Assembly: GCF_001422245.1 (NCBI RefSeq)
Contig: NZ_LMMM01000001.1
Location: 63,422-127,421, forward strand
Direction of reading: 5' to 3'
DNA length: 64,000 bases
Source of the DNA: Rhizobium sp. Leaf262
Lineage (GTDB): Bacteria > Pseudomonadota > Alphaproteobacteria > Rhizobiales > Rhizobiaceae
A program made the translations under genes and the position numbers. The notes under the pieces were generated by a model. The model did not search any database, was not told the DNA's origin, and was given only the letters and a program-made list of their open reading frames with translations. This document shows positions 46,174 through 51,068 of the stretch, one piece after another; within the stretch, counting starts at the first letter, position 1, and the number at the start of each line of letters is the position of its first letter.

Positions 46174-46422
46174 TCAGCAATGGCCAGCGCGAACGGACGA
46201 TAGGTTGATGATCTCGGCTTTCGAGAGATCGACATCCAGTTCGCTCTGCAGCGCCGCTTGCAACGCCTGCTTGGCAACGTCGATATACCAGCTGGCAGAT
46301 GGCGCGCCGAGGGTTTCCGCAACACCTTCTGCATAGGTCAGCATATTGATGAGCGTGAGGAAATCTTCCTGGCGTTCATTGATTTCGGCATCGGTTCTAA
46401 AGGACGTCATTTGAAAACTCAT
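46174..46422 (-). CDS. Small protein at the end of the YcaO-TfuA operon
   Basis: An unrecognised protein of 82 residues from the ATG at 46422, or 78 from the ATG at 46410; the frame is open to 46488 but no ribosome site supports that. It is acidic and predicted mostly helical (EINERQEDFLTLINMLTYAEGVAETL and SWYIDVAKQALQAALQSELD), with a single cysteine as the last residue (AGHC). It lies about 110 bp downstream of tfuA on the same strand. It could be a partner protein, or a precursor with an atypical C-terminal core; helical leaders are common in RiPP precursors. Function is unknown. Confidence 0.6.
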   Translation of the reverse strand: MSFQMTSFRTDAEINERQEDFLTLINMLTYAEGVAETLGAPSASWYIDVAKQALQAALQSELDVDLSKAEIINLSSVRAGHC

Positions 46423-46533
46423 CTTGGGGTTGTTGTGATTCTTTCTACGTCCATAATGAACTGGATGCGCGTTGCAAAACCGTTGCACACGCAGAGCTTG
46501 ATTTTAGTGGTCAACTGTTCGCCTGTGCGTCGA

Positions 46534-47226
46534 TCAAAAATACATCTTGCGAAATAACGGCGTCGCGTTGAATTGCCAGGGATCCGACGGCGACGACTTG
46601 CGGCTGCCCGTCATTGCTTCGAGCAAGGCGATAGCGTCTTGGCGTTTCTGATCCGTCCAGCATATGTCGATCATCGGCTGTAGCGTTGCGAGCTCAATGC
46701 CCGCCAGTTCTGCGATACGCTTCCAGCTTCGGCGTTTGAAGAAAAGAGCGCGTGCTGCATCCCGCAGTCTCTGACACATCGCTTCCTCCAACATATGGCG
46801 GGAGAATAGGGTGTCGATGGTGGCTTGCGCGTTGACAAGGGGGATCGTCAACGGCGAATAACCAAGTTCGGCAGGGCCAAAAAGCAGTGCCACATCGGCA
46901 TCATCCACCCGCAGACCCGAAGCATAATCCTCAAATATCCTGCCGATGCCGATCATGCCGAAAGCAGAGCATTCTGCTGCACGCAGCGCACCCATGCTGG
47001 CTGCTCCGAAGACTATAATGTTTTTTGACAGGGCAAAGAGCAATTCCTTGTGCCAGACCGGGGCAACGGAGCCGAAGTTGCCGTCAATCAGGCCGATCGA
47101 CGTCGCTCCATCGGCCAAGGCCCGCATGACGTCTCCTTGTGCGGCGGGCGGACGAAACTCCATATCTGTGGACACCAGGGCGCTGGCATCTGGAAGGCTT
47201 GGGCCGACGAAAACGATCTTCATCAC
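46534..47226 (-). CDS. tfuA: TfuA-like protein, probable thioamidation partner of YcaO
   Basis: A 230-residue TfuA-core protein. The N-terminal KIVFVGPSLPDA and the central block FGAASMGALRAAECSAFGMIGIGRIFEDYASG (about residues 73-105) are diagnostic of the family, followed by DDADVALLFGPAELGYSPLTIPLVN. TfuA was first seen near trifolitoxin genes; later work on the family links it to sulfur delivery for thioamide formation by YcaO enzymes. Its ATG overlaps the ycaO stop by four bases, indicating coupled expression and probably a complex. The substrate here is not known. Confidence 0.9.
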   Translation of the reverse strand: MMKIVFVGPSLPDASALVSTDMEFRPPAAQGDVMRALADGATSIGLIDGNFGSVAPVWHKELLFALSKNIIVFGAASMGALRAAECSAFGMIGIGRIFEDYASGLRVDDADVALLFGPAELGYSPLTIPLVNAQATIDTLFSRHMLEEAMCQRLRDAARALFFKRRSWKRIAELAGIELATLQPMIDICWTDQKRQDAIALLEAMTGSRKSSPSDPWQFNATPLFRKMYF

Positions 47227-48398
47227 AGAGCCCTGGAGAGGGCGCGGTTGCCGAAACGACGGTGGCGGTCACCGTCCGGATTTTCGAGCTGCGGCGCTAT
47301 GACCTTGACCACGAAGGCTGGCAGCCAATCGGGTGCGAGATCGACCGCGTAGAGTTGAGTGATACCTGACGTCCCGAGTCTTGCGAGCACGGTTTCAAGG
47401 GGCGATGTACCGGGAGTGACGTTCAGTGATGGTAGCGTCTGAAAATCTCTGCAAGCTTCGGCTTCCATCGCCAGGAGCGTGGATGGATCGGCTTTTCGCA
47501 CAAACATATTCGGCAACAGATCGTCTCTTGCGCCGGCAATAAAGGTCATTCTGGACTGCACGGCCTCGGTGATCGCTCTGCTCGCCGCAGCCAATGCAGA
47601 CAGGGATGCACCAGCACCAAGTGTTATATCGACATGCCTTACCTGACCGCGGCTTCGGTTTTTTGGACCCAACAGTGCCACGACGCACGGAATTGCAAGA
47701 TCCGTGGTGATGTCGAACAGAGCGATCTCCAGGCCCGCGCCTGCGATTTTCTCCAAGGCTTGCTGGATATCCGGATATTCGATGGTCTTGGGATCGATAG
47801 CCGAGTGGTACCGTTTGCGTGCTGGCGTTACCTGCCAAAGCGTCAAAGCATCCCGTTCGACGCGTTCCAATACGGCGTGCAAAAGCGCCTCGTCGCGGGT
47901 ATTGCCCGAGGCCAAGCCGTCGGAAGAGCGCCAGTATCTTGGATTCTCCAACGTTCGGTCAAGGTGAATTGCCTCGAACGGCAACCATGGCCGATGGCTA
48001 GTCAACAGCTGCTCTGCCTGCATCCATTCGATATCTTCTGACGGCGCTACGGCTCGCGCATGCGGAGATAAAAGAAGATCAAGCGAGAAAACGAGCTCAC
48101 CTTGTTCCTCCAGCCATGCTCGATTGGTCAGCACCCGTTTGCAAGCGGGGTTGGTCGCAACCGACCGCTCGATTGCCTCCATCACAGCCGATGTTTTGGC
48201 AGCATCGTCATCCATGCCCTTGCCTTGGGCGATGACGACTGCTTTTGCATTCGGCGTATAAGCACACCAAACGGGAATGCCGATATCGTCGAGACCTGTT
48301 TGCCGCGCAAGTCTCGTTATCCCAAGTCGACCAAGAAAGGGTGCAACTCTATCGAACGTTTCGCTTGGAGAGCACGCGCGGTAAGCGTCGACCGGCAC
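47223..48398 (-). CDS. YcaO-family ATP-dependent peptide cyclodehydratase/thioamidation enzyme
   Basis: A 391-residue YcaO protein. The ATP-binding residues of the family are present: S70xxxE74xxE77R78 in KTSAVMEAIERSV, E178 and E181 in AVLERVERD preceded by SSDGLASGNTRDEAL, and E278/Q281/R283 in SRAITEAVQSR. The C-terminus (RRFGNRALSRAL) lacks the PxPxP tail of azoline-forming YcaO enzymes, which together with the adjacent tfuA favours thioamidation. No separate E1-like or F-protein partner gene is nearby. The start is GTG at 48398, two bases after the stop of the 74-residue gene, so translation is likely coupled to it. Confidence 0.92.
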   Translation of the reverse strand: MPVDAYRACSPSETFDRVAPFLGRLGITRLARQTGLDDIGIPVWCAYTPNAKAVVIAQGKGMDDDAAKTSAVMEAIERSVATNPACKRVLTNRAWLEEQGELVFSLDLLLSPHARAVAPSEDIEWMQAEQLLTSHRPWLPFEAIHLDRTLENPRYWRSSDGLASGNTRDEALLHAVLERVERDALTLWQVTPARKRYHSAIDPKTIEYPDIQQALEKIAGAGLEIALFDITTDLAIPCVVALLGPKNRSRGQVRHVDITLGAGASLSALAAASRAITEAVQSRMTFIAGARDDLLPNMFVRKADPSTLLAMEAEACRDFQTLPSLNVTPGTSPLETVLARLGTSGITQLYAVDLAPDWLPAFVVKVIAPQLENPDGDRHRRFGNRALSRAL

Positions 48399-48400
48399 AA

Positions 48401-48625
48401 CTAGCCGTCGCCTTCGTGAACTCCGTGTACGCCGGTGCTATCCGCAGAGGCGGCAATCGCGAAGTCCACGCCCTTTGTGATGGTGACGCCCGATGCGCGC
48501 AGCGACGCTGCGTTCGCCAGCTCACCGGAAAGTGGCTCCTGAATGGCGGTGATCGTTCCAGCCTTCAAATCCGCCTGCCAGAGGGCCGCCTCACCCGAAA
48601 TTCCTAAAATAACAACCTGAGTCAT
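48401..48625 (-). CDS. 74-residue protein directly upstream of ycaO (candidate RiPP precursor)
   Basis: An unrecognised small protein starting MTQVVILGISGEAALWQAD and ending with a Gly/His/Asp-rich tail, STGVHGVHEGDG. It has no cysteine and is rich in Ala, Gly, Ser and Thr in its second half. GGGA lies six bases before the ATG. It begins 11 bp after the regulator gene stops and ends two bases before the ycaO start. Position and size fit a RiPP precursor for the YcaO-TfuA pair, the C-terminal region being the possible core. Against this, the N-terminal half looks like a folded beta/alpha segment rather than a typical leader. Confidence 0.65.
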   Translation of the reverse strand: MTQVVILGISGEAALWQADLKAGTITAIQEPLSGELANAASLRASGVTITKGVDFAIAASADSTGVHGVHEGDG

Positions 48626-48636
48626 TCGATTCCCAA

Positions 48637-50454
48637 TTAAAATCCGGCCTTTTTCAAGCCGTCACGATACATCTCGGTTTGCCACATTTCCTTGTGGGGA
48701 ATCACGGCAAGCCAGCGATCCAAATCGAAACTTGGATTGTCTTCGAAGACTCTTGCACGATATACGCGAGCTTTGTCAACATCTCCCAACATGCCGTAGC
48801 AGGCAGCAGCAAGGCGCGCGGCTGGCCGTTTGTTGCTCATCTGATTGATGTAACCCAGCGACTGGTCGAACTGGTTGAGGAAGTAGCTGGCGCTTGCTGC
48901 TGTCCAGTAATAAATATCCGGCGATATAGGGTTGAGATCGATGGCCTGCTTGATTTTGATGATGGAGCTGGCAGGGTCGCTGTTATGGTTGAGCGTGTCT
49001 GCATAGCTGCACAAAACATCGGCATATTGCGGACTGAGGGTTTCGGCTTGAGACAATGCCGCCAGACTGTCGTCAATTTTTCCCATAAAAAGCCGGGAAA
49101 CGCCAAGTTCCTTGTAACCGTTGGACGATTCCTCGTTCACCGCAATAGCGCGATCGGCAAGCCGTTCCGCGTCGATCAGCAATTGATCGTCTCCACGCGC
49201 GGTCAACAGCCATTCGACGCTGAGCGTGCGGGATAGGCCTGCAAATGCTTCCGAGAAATCGTTTCCGTGCTCCAGCGCTTCCTTGAAATATTTGCGCGCA
49301 CGCCGGACAGACGGGAGGTTGATGTTGGAGAGGGATTGCAGCCCCTTAAGATACAGAAAATAAGCTTCCGGGCGCTTCGAGAAATCGGCCCGCGCGTTCT
49401 GGTGCGAGCCGATCTGCACCGTCAGTTCACGTTGAATGACTGCGGCAATGTCGATGCGGTGGGATGCGACGGCGATGGGCGACAGTTCGAAGCGTCCGGC
49501 CCAGATGATTTCTTCGGTCGGCGTGAAGATCAATTGCATAAACAGGTGCGTGTCGTTGCGCCGACTGTCGAGTGCATAGACCACCTTGTGGCGCTCGAGA
49601 ACCGCAGCTTTGTCCTTCGATGCCTGAATGCGCGCGGACGTGTATGGTGCAACAACCGAAACCGTGCGGCTGCTGCAGAGCCCTATCGTCAGATCCTCGA
49701 TCAACGCATCCGCAATCCTTCCATCCGGGTTGGTCCCCGTTGCGGCGGCTGGCGGAAGCAGAGCGATGCGTGGGTGTCCTGAAAGCGTTTGCGCAAAAGT
49801 CTGCGCGACAGGCTGGACAGTCTCGGCAAATGACATCGGCGTCGCTGGTACGGTCGCAGGCTCGAGCGGTCTCGTGCTCAGTCCGGAAGACAGAAGGGCC
49901 CGAATGTCATGGTCATCCGGGTCAGCCTCAAGCAGCAGGATTGCCGCGCGTTTCAAATCCGAATGCGCGTCGGGATGGCGCTGCTGCAAGTTGATCATGT
50001 CGAGAAACTGCGCGCGCAAGTCGCCAAGAATACGCAGCCTGACATCGCGGATCCATACGTCGAGCCCGGCTTTTCCCTCACCAAAGCCGGGAAGGAACTG
50101 CATGGCTACAGCGTCGCACAGCGCTTTGAGACGCTCCACCGGTGTTCCCGTGATATCGAAGTCGCCGCTCAGAACTTGCCGATCGACCGAGATATGGGTC
50201 GTGTCGATCAGCATGACGGGGCTGGATGCCTCTAACGTTGCCTGCGAAAACCGGCGCAGAGTCGAGCGCAAGTTCGTCGATGCGGCATCGGGATTGCCCG
50301 GCCAGAGCAGATTGGCGGCGTCCCTTCTTCGAACAGGCTTGCCGACATCGAGCAGATAGGCCGCCAATAGGAGAGATTGCGCTGGCACGTTCACCACGTT
50401 GCCCGCTTCATCTTCCAGATTGCATCGCCCTAGTGTCGCTAGTCTGAAAGCCAT
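48637..50454 (-). CDS. SARP-like regulator with TolB-like and TPR domains
   Basis: A 605-residue regulator with an N-terminal winged-helix and bacterial-transcriptional-activation-like region (LLLAAYLLDVGKPVRRRDAANLLWPGNPDAASTNLRSTLRRF, about residues 28-70), a central TolB/FlgO-like domain (about 225-340, IALLPPAAATGTNPDGRIADALIEDLTIGL), and C-terminal TPR-like helical repeats (about 360-580). This mix resembles CadC/SARP-type regulators that control secondary metabolite or envelope genes. It lies 11 bp before the 74-residue gene and 5 bp after the XRE gene on the same strand, so it probably controls the YcaO-TfuA operon. The ligand is unknown. Confidence 0.75.
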   Translation of the reverse strand: MAFRLATLGRCNLEDEAGNVVNVPAQSLLLAAYLLDVGKPVRRRDAANLLWPGNPDAASTNLRSTLRRFSQATLEASSPVMLIDTTHISVDRQVLSGDFDITGTPVERLKALCDAVAMQFLPGFGEGKAGLDVWIRDVRLRILGDLRAQFLDMINLQQRHPDAHSDLKRAAILLLEADPDDHDIRALLSSGLSTRPLEPATVPATPMSFAETVQPVAQTFAQTLSGHPRIALLPPAAATGTNPDGRIADALIEDLTIGLCSSRTVSVVAPYTSARIQASKDKAAVLERHKVVYALDSRRNDTHLFMQLIFTPTEEIIWAGRFELSPIAVASHRIDIAAVIQRELTVQIGSHQNARADFSKRPEAYFLYLKGLQSLSNINLPSVRRARKYFKEALEHGNDFSEAFAGLSRTLSVEWLLTARGDDQLLIDAERLADRAIAVNEESSNGYKELGVSRLFMGKIDDSLAALSQAETLSPQYADVLCSYADTLNHNSDPASSIIKIKQAIDLNPISPDIYYWTAASASYFLNQFDQSLGYINQMSNKRPAARLAAACYGMLGDVDKARVYRARVFEDNPSFDLDRWLAVIPHKEMWQTEMYRDGLKKAGF

Positions 50455-50459
50455 ATCGT

Positions 50460-50894
50460 TCAGTGGGCAAGGGGCGCGGACGTCTCGGTCGTCTTTTGTA
50501 TCTCGCTAGTGTTGGAGGTGCTCAGCGACTGAACGAGTTCGAGGACGCGGCGGCGCACGCGGCTGTCTTCAATGCCGCAGAAAGCCTTGGCGAGCGAGAT
50601 GCCTTCCTTGGAGTTGAAGAACTGCGACAACATGCTGGGCACAGCCAGCGCTCTGTCTTCAGTGGCTTCCGGCGTTCCCTCGAAAAAATACGAGATATGA
50701 ACGTCCAGCAGTTCCGAGATGTGCTGCAAACGGCTGGCGCCGACGCGATTGGTGCCCTTTTCGTATTTCTGAACCTGCTGAAACGTAATGCCCAGTCCAT
50801 CGCCAAGCTTTTCCTGGCTGAGGCCCAGCATCACGCGGCGAAGTCGAATGCGGGACCCCACATGTATATCGGTAGCATTGGGTGATTTCTTCAT
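50460..50894 (-). CDS. XRE-family transcriptional regulator
   Basis: A 144-residue regulator with one HTH_3 domain (GSRIRLRRVMLGLSQEKLGDGLGITFQQVQKYEKGTNRVGASRLQHISELL, about residues 13-65) and a helical C-terminal part rich in Ser/Thr. This type is common and multicopy in Rhizobiales. The frame reaches 50993, but ATG at 50894 gives the family's usual MKKSPN-type start. It precedes the SARP-like gene by 5 bp, so it may head the YcaO-TfuA operon and regulate it. Its operator is not identified. Confidence 0.82.
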   Translation of the reverse strand: MKKSPNATDIHVGSRIRLRRVMLGLSQEKLGDGLGITFQQVQKYEKGTNRVGASRLQHISELLDVHISYFFEGTPEATEDRALAVPSMLSQFFNSKEGISLAKAFCGIEDSRVRRRVLELVQSLSTSNTSEIQKTTETSAPLAH

Positions 50895-51068
50895 GATGAG
50901 ACGAACTCCAGAATCTGATAATTGGGATAAGACTGCCTTAAAGTTGCAATGATCGCAACGGGTCGACAGCTTGAATCCAGTGTGTATTTTCAAAGAATGC
51001 CTGGTATCACGCTGAAAACCGTGCTGTCAGCGACAAGATGCTTCGGATCGGCCCACCCGGGTCGACCA

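Follow-up and report, generated by a model that had tools for sequence, protein, structure and literature searches.

The six-gene module

The window analysed here, a stretch of 64,000 nucleotides from Rhizobium sp. Leaf262 (contig NZ_LMMM01000001.1), contains a compact module of six minus-strand genes (46174-50894) encoding, in order, an XRE regulator, a SARP-TPR regulator, a small protein termed s74, a YcaO protein, a TfuA protein and a second small protein, s82 (Table 1). An earlier note, prepared from the DNA letters alone, had taken these genes for a candidate thioamidated system of the kind that makes ribosomally synthesized and post-translationally modified peptides (RiPPs). All six genes are present as it described them, and the intergenic gaps of 5, 11, 2 and -4 bp that it gave are correct; the gap between tfuA and the last gene, measured from the ATG at 46410, is 123 bp. 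From this ATG s82 has 78 residues, and from the next ATG upstream 82. The reading as an undescribed TfuA-YcaO RiPP system is now well supported, with s74 displaying a hallmark of precursors, namely core repeats in its relatives, and the comparison of relatives that the note had proposed finds both small genes alongside YcaO-TfuA. Of the two, s74 is precursor-like, whereas s82 resembles CinS and looks like a regulated output, not a second substrate. We propose, with roughly even confidence, that the module constitutes a self-contained peptide control circuit: it would yield a thioamidated peptide, and its SARP-TPR regulator would induce an anti-repressor that acts on the XRE protein of the same operon.

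Table 1. Genes and predicted sites of the module (positions in the window)
Feature	Positions	Strand	Basis
XRE regulator, PraR paralog	50460..50894	-	HTH_3, 3.4e-12
SARP-TPR regulator: predicted winged helix with BTAD-like region; TolB-like region; TPR domain	48637..50454	-	structure model; Pfam TPR
s74, putative RiPP precursor, 74 residues, single core here	48401..48625	-	alignments; repeats in relatives; predicted fold
YcaO, TfuA-associated type	47223..48398	-	PF02624, E 9.9e-62
TfuA	46534..47226	-	PF07812, E 2.2e-39; solved relative 6xp8, E 1.2e-26
Predicted SARP operator for the last gene, TGCAACG-N4-TGCAACG, 11-base period	46470..46487	-	sole perfect copy in genome; same place in relatives
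s82, small CinS-like protein, predicted SARP output and XRE anti-repressor	46174..46410	-	family behind operator; hhalign
TTGCAA, candidate autoregulation site upstream of the XRE gene	50944..50949	.	sequence; reported PraR consensus

The enzymes and the putative precursor

YcaO proteins of the TfuA-associated type activate a backbone amide. The genome contains only one match to YcaO and one to TfuA, and the two genes are adjacent, as in TfuA-YcaO thioamidated RiPP systems. Two models for the thioamidation of the McrA glycine stay under their cut-offs, TIGR03266, which is the best NCBIfam row of the window YcaO (191.4 of 365 bits), and NF033432 (170.2 of 235.2 bits); the model for the E. coli type of YcaO, NF040716, reaches 19.4 of 700 bits, also short of its cut-off, and the nearest solved relative is MJ1094 (6pe3). 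No PxPxP was found in the window YcaO, in line with what the earlier note had said of its tail. An azoline bacteriocin was considered and rejected, as the module has no E1-like or dehydrogenase partner and the enzyme scores higher on the thioamidation models. As reported for other systems, sulfide is provided by a TfuA hydrolase together with a ThiS-like carrier (PMC13063428), methanogen McrA has a thioamidated glycine (PMC5589413) and E. coli YcaO thioamidates uL16 (PMC13063428), while in 2015 the substrates of TfuA-associated YcaO proteins were described as still not known (PMC4603692). By analogy, YcaO-TfuA would thioamidate the product of the module, at a site considered below.

The primary sequence of s74 gives no Pfam match and a single sub-threshold NCBIfam row. 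No two of 75 relatives match the same Pfam family at E 0.1, and the commonest NCBIfam row, a VapC model, involves three members (best E 0.0039). Alignments reveal a conserved N-terminal part of about 60 residues, which is folded in the structure model, and a C-terminal tail modelled at low confidence; we thus divide the protein into a leader (residues 1 to ~60) and a core (~61-74, roughly 48404-48445). A tail motif [SAGN]-G-x-x-[DE] occurs in 60 of the 75 aligned proteins, with the version H-G-V-H-E in the window, so that the core reads G-x-x-[DE] in most Rhizobiaceae and GVHE here. Internal repeats are a further feature of the family: of 93 distinct s74 proteins 19 contain them, as against a mean of 2.2 and a maximum of 7 in 50 rounds of shuffling. 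In none of the 19 do the repeats, up to eight copies, begin before residue 43, and they lie beyond the conserved N-terminal region. The repeated cores, whose copies were counted by eye in addition to the internal-repeat computation, include GLHE three times (L098, L099), SGKLE/D four times (L110), GGYMD three times (L161) and GLFE six times together with one GLCE (L216), and in other families there are imperfect copies of SDAASHHYFPNRG (eight, L206), RSDAAAHILYGADT (eight, L209) and SEAASHYYYPSR (five, L214). This pattern matches the published description of thiovarsolin precursors, reported to range from non-repeating to five repeats (PMC6511847). Foldseek returned no row for s74 with an E-value below 0.24; the weak and non-significant rows (query 48404-48625) included RRE domains, those of TbiB1 (5v1u/5v1v, lasso peptide) and CteB (5why, sactipeptide), at E ~0.7 to 1.7. 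No signal peptide is evident by eye, no predictor having been run. The evidence that s74 is a RiPP-type precursor linked to YcaO-TfuA and composed of leader and core is circumstantial.

The SARP-TPR regulator and its predicted operator

SARP regulators recognise direct-repeat operators with a period of about 11 bases. The AlphaFold2 model of the SARP-TPR protein (mean predicted local distance difference test score, pLDDT, 89.4) has a topology that fits a winged helix and a BTAD-like part; a further part is presumably TolB-like. Pfam matched the TPR region of the window protein, with neither BTAD nor Trans_reg_C at E 1; among ten chosen relatives, BTAD was over its cut-off in seven and Trans_reg_C appeared below its cut-off in one. 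At loci L148 and L151 the SARP-TPR open frames beside s74 are without the DNA-binding part.

Behind tfuA, or behind ycaO in genus g45, lies a perfect direct repeat, TGCAACG-N4-TGCAACG or, in other genera, TGTCACG-N4-TGTCACG. A site with at most one mismatch is present in 73 of 102 loci, including 71 of the 94 that carry s74 (at least three record pairs, L034/L092, L037/L091 and L041/L220, were fetched twice and are counted separately in the locus counts), and 70 of these 73 sites are followed, at a distance of 53 to 192 bases, by the start of a gene of the s82 family; the three remaining sites (L146, L153, L218) are probably due to chance. Nine of the fetched TfuA-YcaO loci belong to different types (L155, L156, L164-L170), and none of them has such a site; 1.02 Mb of letter-shuffled control sequence gave one site. 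Genome-wide, the single perfect copy precedes s82; the biosynthetic genes have none in front of them. A wider SARP regulon was rejected, with two one-mismatch sites in the genome against one for a reversed-pattern control.

The regulator varies along with the operator. Among 605 alignment positions, the one that best distinguishes the two operator types is residue 64 of the SARP protein, with residues 67 and 389 tied behind it, and both 64 and 67 belong to the helix predicted to serve in recognition (55-72). All 28 loci with TGCAACG have Ser at residue 64, and all 34 with TGTCACG have Lys or Gln there, a tally that omits loci whose site is not directly behind tfuA (L146, L152, L153, L204, L218). 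The alignment excluded the split or truncated proteins of L147, L148 and L151 and those of L155, L156, L164, L166 and L167, and the ranking left out 19 of 86 sequences with no site on the fetched stretch. Since the tree shows just two changes of operator type, the match between residue 64 and the operator is suggestive and not a statistical proof; an independent-pairs comparison yielded one supported pair and could not reach significance. Binding of the operator by the XRE protein was rejected, because the XRE recognition helix is nearly invariant with operator type (no value above 0.25, where 1 is the maximum), whereas other XRE positions reach 0.90. These observations suggest that it is SARP-TPR that binds the direct repeat.

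s82 and the XRE regulator

The 78-residue form of s82 has no Pfam or NCBIfam match at E 1, and members of its family often end in a C-terminal Cys. A profile iterated solely on open reading frames behind operators gave no hits in shuffled sequence and 81 among all open reading frames, five of them in loci without s74. In an hhalign comparison with three CinS-like proteins encoded next to luxI (L288-L290), s82 obtained a probability of 82% over 41 columns, with an E-value of 1e-5 that refers to this single comparison; the negative control, s82 against s74, gave 0.1%, and adding the protein of L264 raised the value to 96%, but circularly. Each of the four luxI-linked proteins scores above all of ~2450 shuffles. 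The broad s82 model weakly picks the small gene behind luxI in L288, the only one to pass E 0.01 among 26 luxI loci from 14 genomes, and close relatives of it are present in L289 and L290. At L264 (4431-5295), a luxI-type autoinducer synthase gene is directly followed by a small gene matching the broad model. We regard s82 as a remote relative, by profile similarity, of the CinS-like small proteins behind luxI.

The window XRE protein shows 56% identity across 135 residues with the one other match in the genome, whose gene is followed by genes for a SAM synthetase and a Methyltransf_4 (TrmB-type) protein; genes of these types are described in the neighbourhood of praR (PMC10790750). On this basis the window XRE is a close PraR paralog. 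In R. leguminosarum, PraR, an XRE protein that affects biofilms and nodulation competitiveness, is reported to be inactivated by the anti-repressor CinS, encoded together with cinI (PMC4149787), and in Methylobacterium the small protein MmaP is reported to bind PraR (PMC10790750). R. leguminosarum 3841 also has a PraR-like gene, RL0149, which is reported to be repressed by PraR. By analogy s82 may act as anti-repressor of the XRE protein. Neighbouring XRE and s82 genes occur with no enzyme genes nearby in L094, L260 and L261, and s82 adjoins the XRE gene in L155, L156 and L166. The reported PraR consensus, TTGCAA (PMC4149787), lies upstream of the XRE gene in the window; 12 of 77 loci have a copy within 220 bp, where about four sites are expected at random, a weak excess.

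Distribution of the module

The exact order XRE-SARP-s74-YcaO-TfuA-s82 recurs in 56 of the 94 fetched s74 loci, and the arrangement is therefore not a product of chance; three further loci have the same order with two tandem s74 genes. The SARP gene is directly upstream of s74 in 90 of the 94, including pairs without local YcaO or TfuA, and the four exceptions are L041 and L220 (one record, at a contig end), L147 (split SARP) and L035 (SARP fragment only). In a draw of 394 genomes from the family, TfuA was found in 123 and s74 in 78; TfuA accompanied s74 in 78 of 78 genomes, compared with 45 of 316 genomes without s74. The s82-type gene was found in 73 of 384 genomes with the broad model and in 18 of 394 with the narrow one. 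In an order-level draw, s74 was found in 33 of 397 genomes, nine of which belong to the family of the window. Among plasmids, 67 records of a plasmid collection match YcaO at E <=1e-50, mostly from Rhizobium, Sinorhizobium and Ensifer, and the full set with operator is present in Rhizobium tropici CIAT 899, on pRtrCIAT899c, and in Sinorhizobium terangae.

Whereas s74 is never seen without TfuA, s82 occurs in four genomes that lack it. Three genomes (G219, G273, G352) keep the SARP gene, the operator with one mismatch and s82, with ~210 to 320 bases from the SARP stop to the operator, and G352 also has the XRE gene on the fetched stretch; there is no s74 or TfuA match genome-wide in any of the three, nor a YcaO on the fetched stretch. 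The simplest reading of these sequences is a joint loss of s74 and the enzymes. SARP-s74 pairs without local enzymes are found in L111, L124, L129, L135, L148 and L151, all in genomes that do have TfuA. Local enzymes are missing from L143 as well, and L223 is cut by a contig end; in g45, tfuA is located elsewhere, beside an XRE gene (L158, L159).

Several loci depart from the common arrangement. In genome G297, one locus (L130, 2675-5971) has a shortened SARP and no s74, yet retains YcaO, TfuA, operator and s82, and another (L111) has the SARP-s74 pair only. Genome G009 contains two s74 loci (L143, L144) that differ in operator type and core, as if mutually insulated. In G017 the complete module lies elsewhere (L093), while the site L094 (5192-7420), beside a yhhQ-like gene, has only XRE, operator and s82. 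Three TfuA loci without s74 (L155, 4820-5300; L156, 7180-7680; L166, 7000-7560) have SARP followed by a different protein of ~140 residues, beginning with MSSHFFIVGKKG in L155, and then YcaO and TfuA. This protein probably represents another family of substrates within a like architecture and is possibly a distant relative of s74.

Outside the module, a transporter gene (PF02592), which we take to be yhhQ-like, is a neighbour only in the window, L033, L034, L036, L037, L095 and duplicates, so the position of the module is not conserved more widely.

A possible peptide control circuit

The proposed circuit would work as follows. YcaO would use ATP to activate a backbone amide in the short core that follows the folded s74 leader of ~60 residues, in tandem copies in some relatives, and TfuA would deliver the sulfide. 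The likely product would be a short thioamidated peptide, modified most simply at the conserved Gly of the core, a choice we infer from the thioamidated glycine of methanogen McrA, and freed by general peptidases. As the module holds no export gene, the peptide may act inside the cell rather than being exported. SARP-TPR, encoded directly upstream, would be the partner of s74, its TPR groove offering a natural peptide sensor; by binding the 11-base direct repeat it would switch on s82, which in turn would bind and inactivate the PraR-like XRE protein, the product of the first gene of the operon. A more specific version, which we advance tentatively, is a Gram-negative signalling system resembling RRNPP, in which SARP-TPR senses the thioamidated RiPP and acts on a single operator to induce a CinS-like anti-repressor, which then relieves control by a PraR-type repressor.

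We consider it unlikely that the module makes an ordinary thioamidated natural product, for example an antibacterial peptide, with SARP and XRE as cluster-situated regulators and s82 as an immunity or accessory protein. The combination of YcaO-TfuA with a repeat-bearing precursor does recall the thiovarsolin cluster, in which varA carries repeats and no specific protease is described (PMC6511847), and in Rhizobium more than 500 putative clusters for thioamidated RiPPs are reported by Malit et al. (PMC8120280). Such a role fits poorly, however, with a module that has no transporter, resistance or tailoring gene within its six genes and is flanked by large open frames that vary among loci by eye, with an operator placed before s82 instead of the biosynthetic genes, and with a CinS-like s82 that is present where s74 and TfuA are missing.

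The remaining explanations concern the identity of the substrate. If s82, under its own SARP-driven promoter, were the true precursor, s74 would have an accessory role as a leader-binding protein similar to half of an RRE domain; the putative operator and the frequent C-terminal Cys of s82 would accord with this, as would the Foldseek rows linking s74 to RRE domains, except that those rows are not significant. We judge it improbable, given that the repeats belong to s74 while none was noticed in s82 by eye, that s82 is related to CinS-like proteins, and that it is s82 and not s74 that occurs in genomes without TfuA. About equally improbable, in our estimate, is modification of an endogenous protein, either folded like McrA or ribosomal like uL16, with s74 as a recruiting factor. 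The closest NCBIfam models are those of the McrA pair, and the reported thioamidation of uL16 by E. coli YcaO (PMC13063428) offers a precedent; against this, both McrA models and the E. coli-type model stay below their cut-offs, and the tandem repeated tails of s74 would be left unexplained. In suggesting an endogenous role the earlier note was partly right in spirit, although its example of a cellular substrate, a protein like McrA, is not supported.

If confirmed, the circuit would represent a novel type of peptide-based control in soil and plant-associated bacteria, with rhizobia employing ribosomal peptides, once modified, as regulatory ligands tied to the PraR node, and it makes testable a role of backbone thioamides as stable regulatory ligands rather than toxins. 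An in silico survey of 2021 listed more than 1000 TfuA-YcaO clusters in Proteobacteria, including Rhizobium and Agrobacterium, at a time when the known thioamidated RiPPs of such pairs all came from Actinobacteria (PMC8120280); in the parts of its main text consulted, neither the s74 precursor family nor the SARP-s82 circuit is named. Our searches of the open-licence literature found no published link between a YcaO/TfuA module and SARP, CinS, PraR or quorum sensing. For one large Rhizobiales set there is now a defined family of precursors whose cores can be read, together with a candidate receptor, a single operator and a single output gene.

Comparison with known systems

The nearest enzyme models are those of the McrA-glycine thioamidation pair, with which the module also shares an overlapping ycaO-tfuA stop and start (PMC5589413), but it scores below the curated cut-offs, and the candidate substrate encoded beside its enzymes is a small protein that sometimes carries repeats. 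With the thiovarsolin system of Streptomyces (VarA, VarY, VarT), as described in PMC6511847, it shares the TfuA-YcaO pair, a leader with imperfect core repeats of varying number and the lack of a dedicated protease. Unlike that system, it contains no heme oxygenase, ATP-grasp, amidinotransferase or MFS gene, the partners VarO, VarL, VarP and VarS being absent from its six genes by Pfam and NCBIfam (neighbours in relatives were viewed by eye), and is tied instead to SARP-TPR, a direct-repeat operator and s82.

In RRNPP pairs such as Rap-Phr, as described in PMC10075063, the gene of a TPR receptor adjoins a small gene that gives the would-be ligand, as it does here in 90 of 94 loci. The examples described come from Gram-positive Firmicutes and the mobile elements of these bacteria, and secreted propeptides are the feature by which they are detected, whereas the module has a SARP winged helix, a Gram-negative host, no evident secretion signal and YcaO-TfuA. 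A parallel in circuit design is offered by CinI-CinR-CinS-PraR in R. leguminosarum and MmaI-MmaP-PraR in Methylobacterium, which likewise combine signal-maker genes, an activator, an induced small protein and a PraR-family XRE. In the module the signal would be a modified peptide and not an acyl-homoserine lactone, the activator is SARP-TPR in place of LuxR, and the XRE gene lies in the same operon. If our proposal is true, the module would be the ribosomal-peptide counterpart of the acyl-homoserine-lactone CinI/CinR/CinS/PraR branch.

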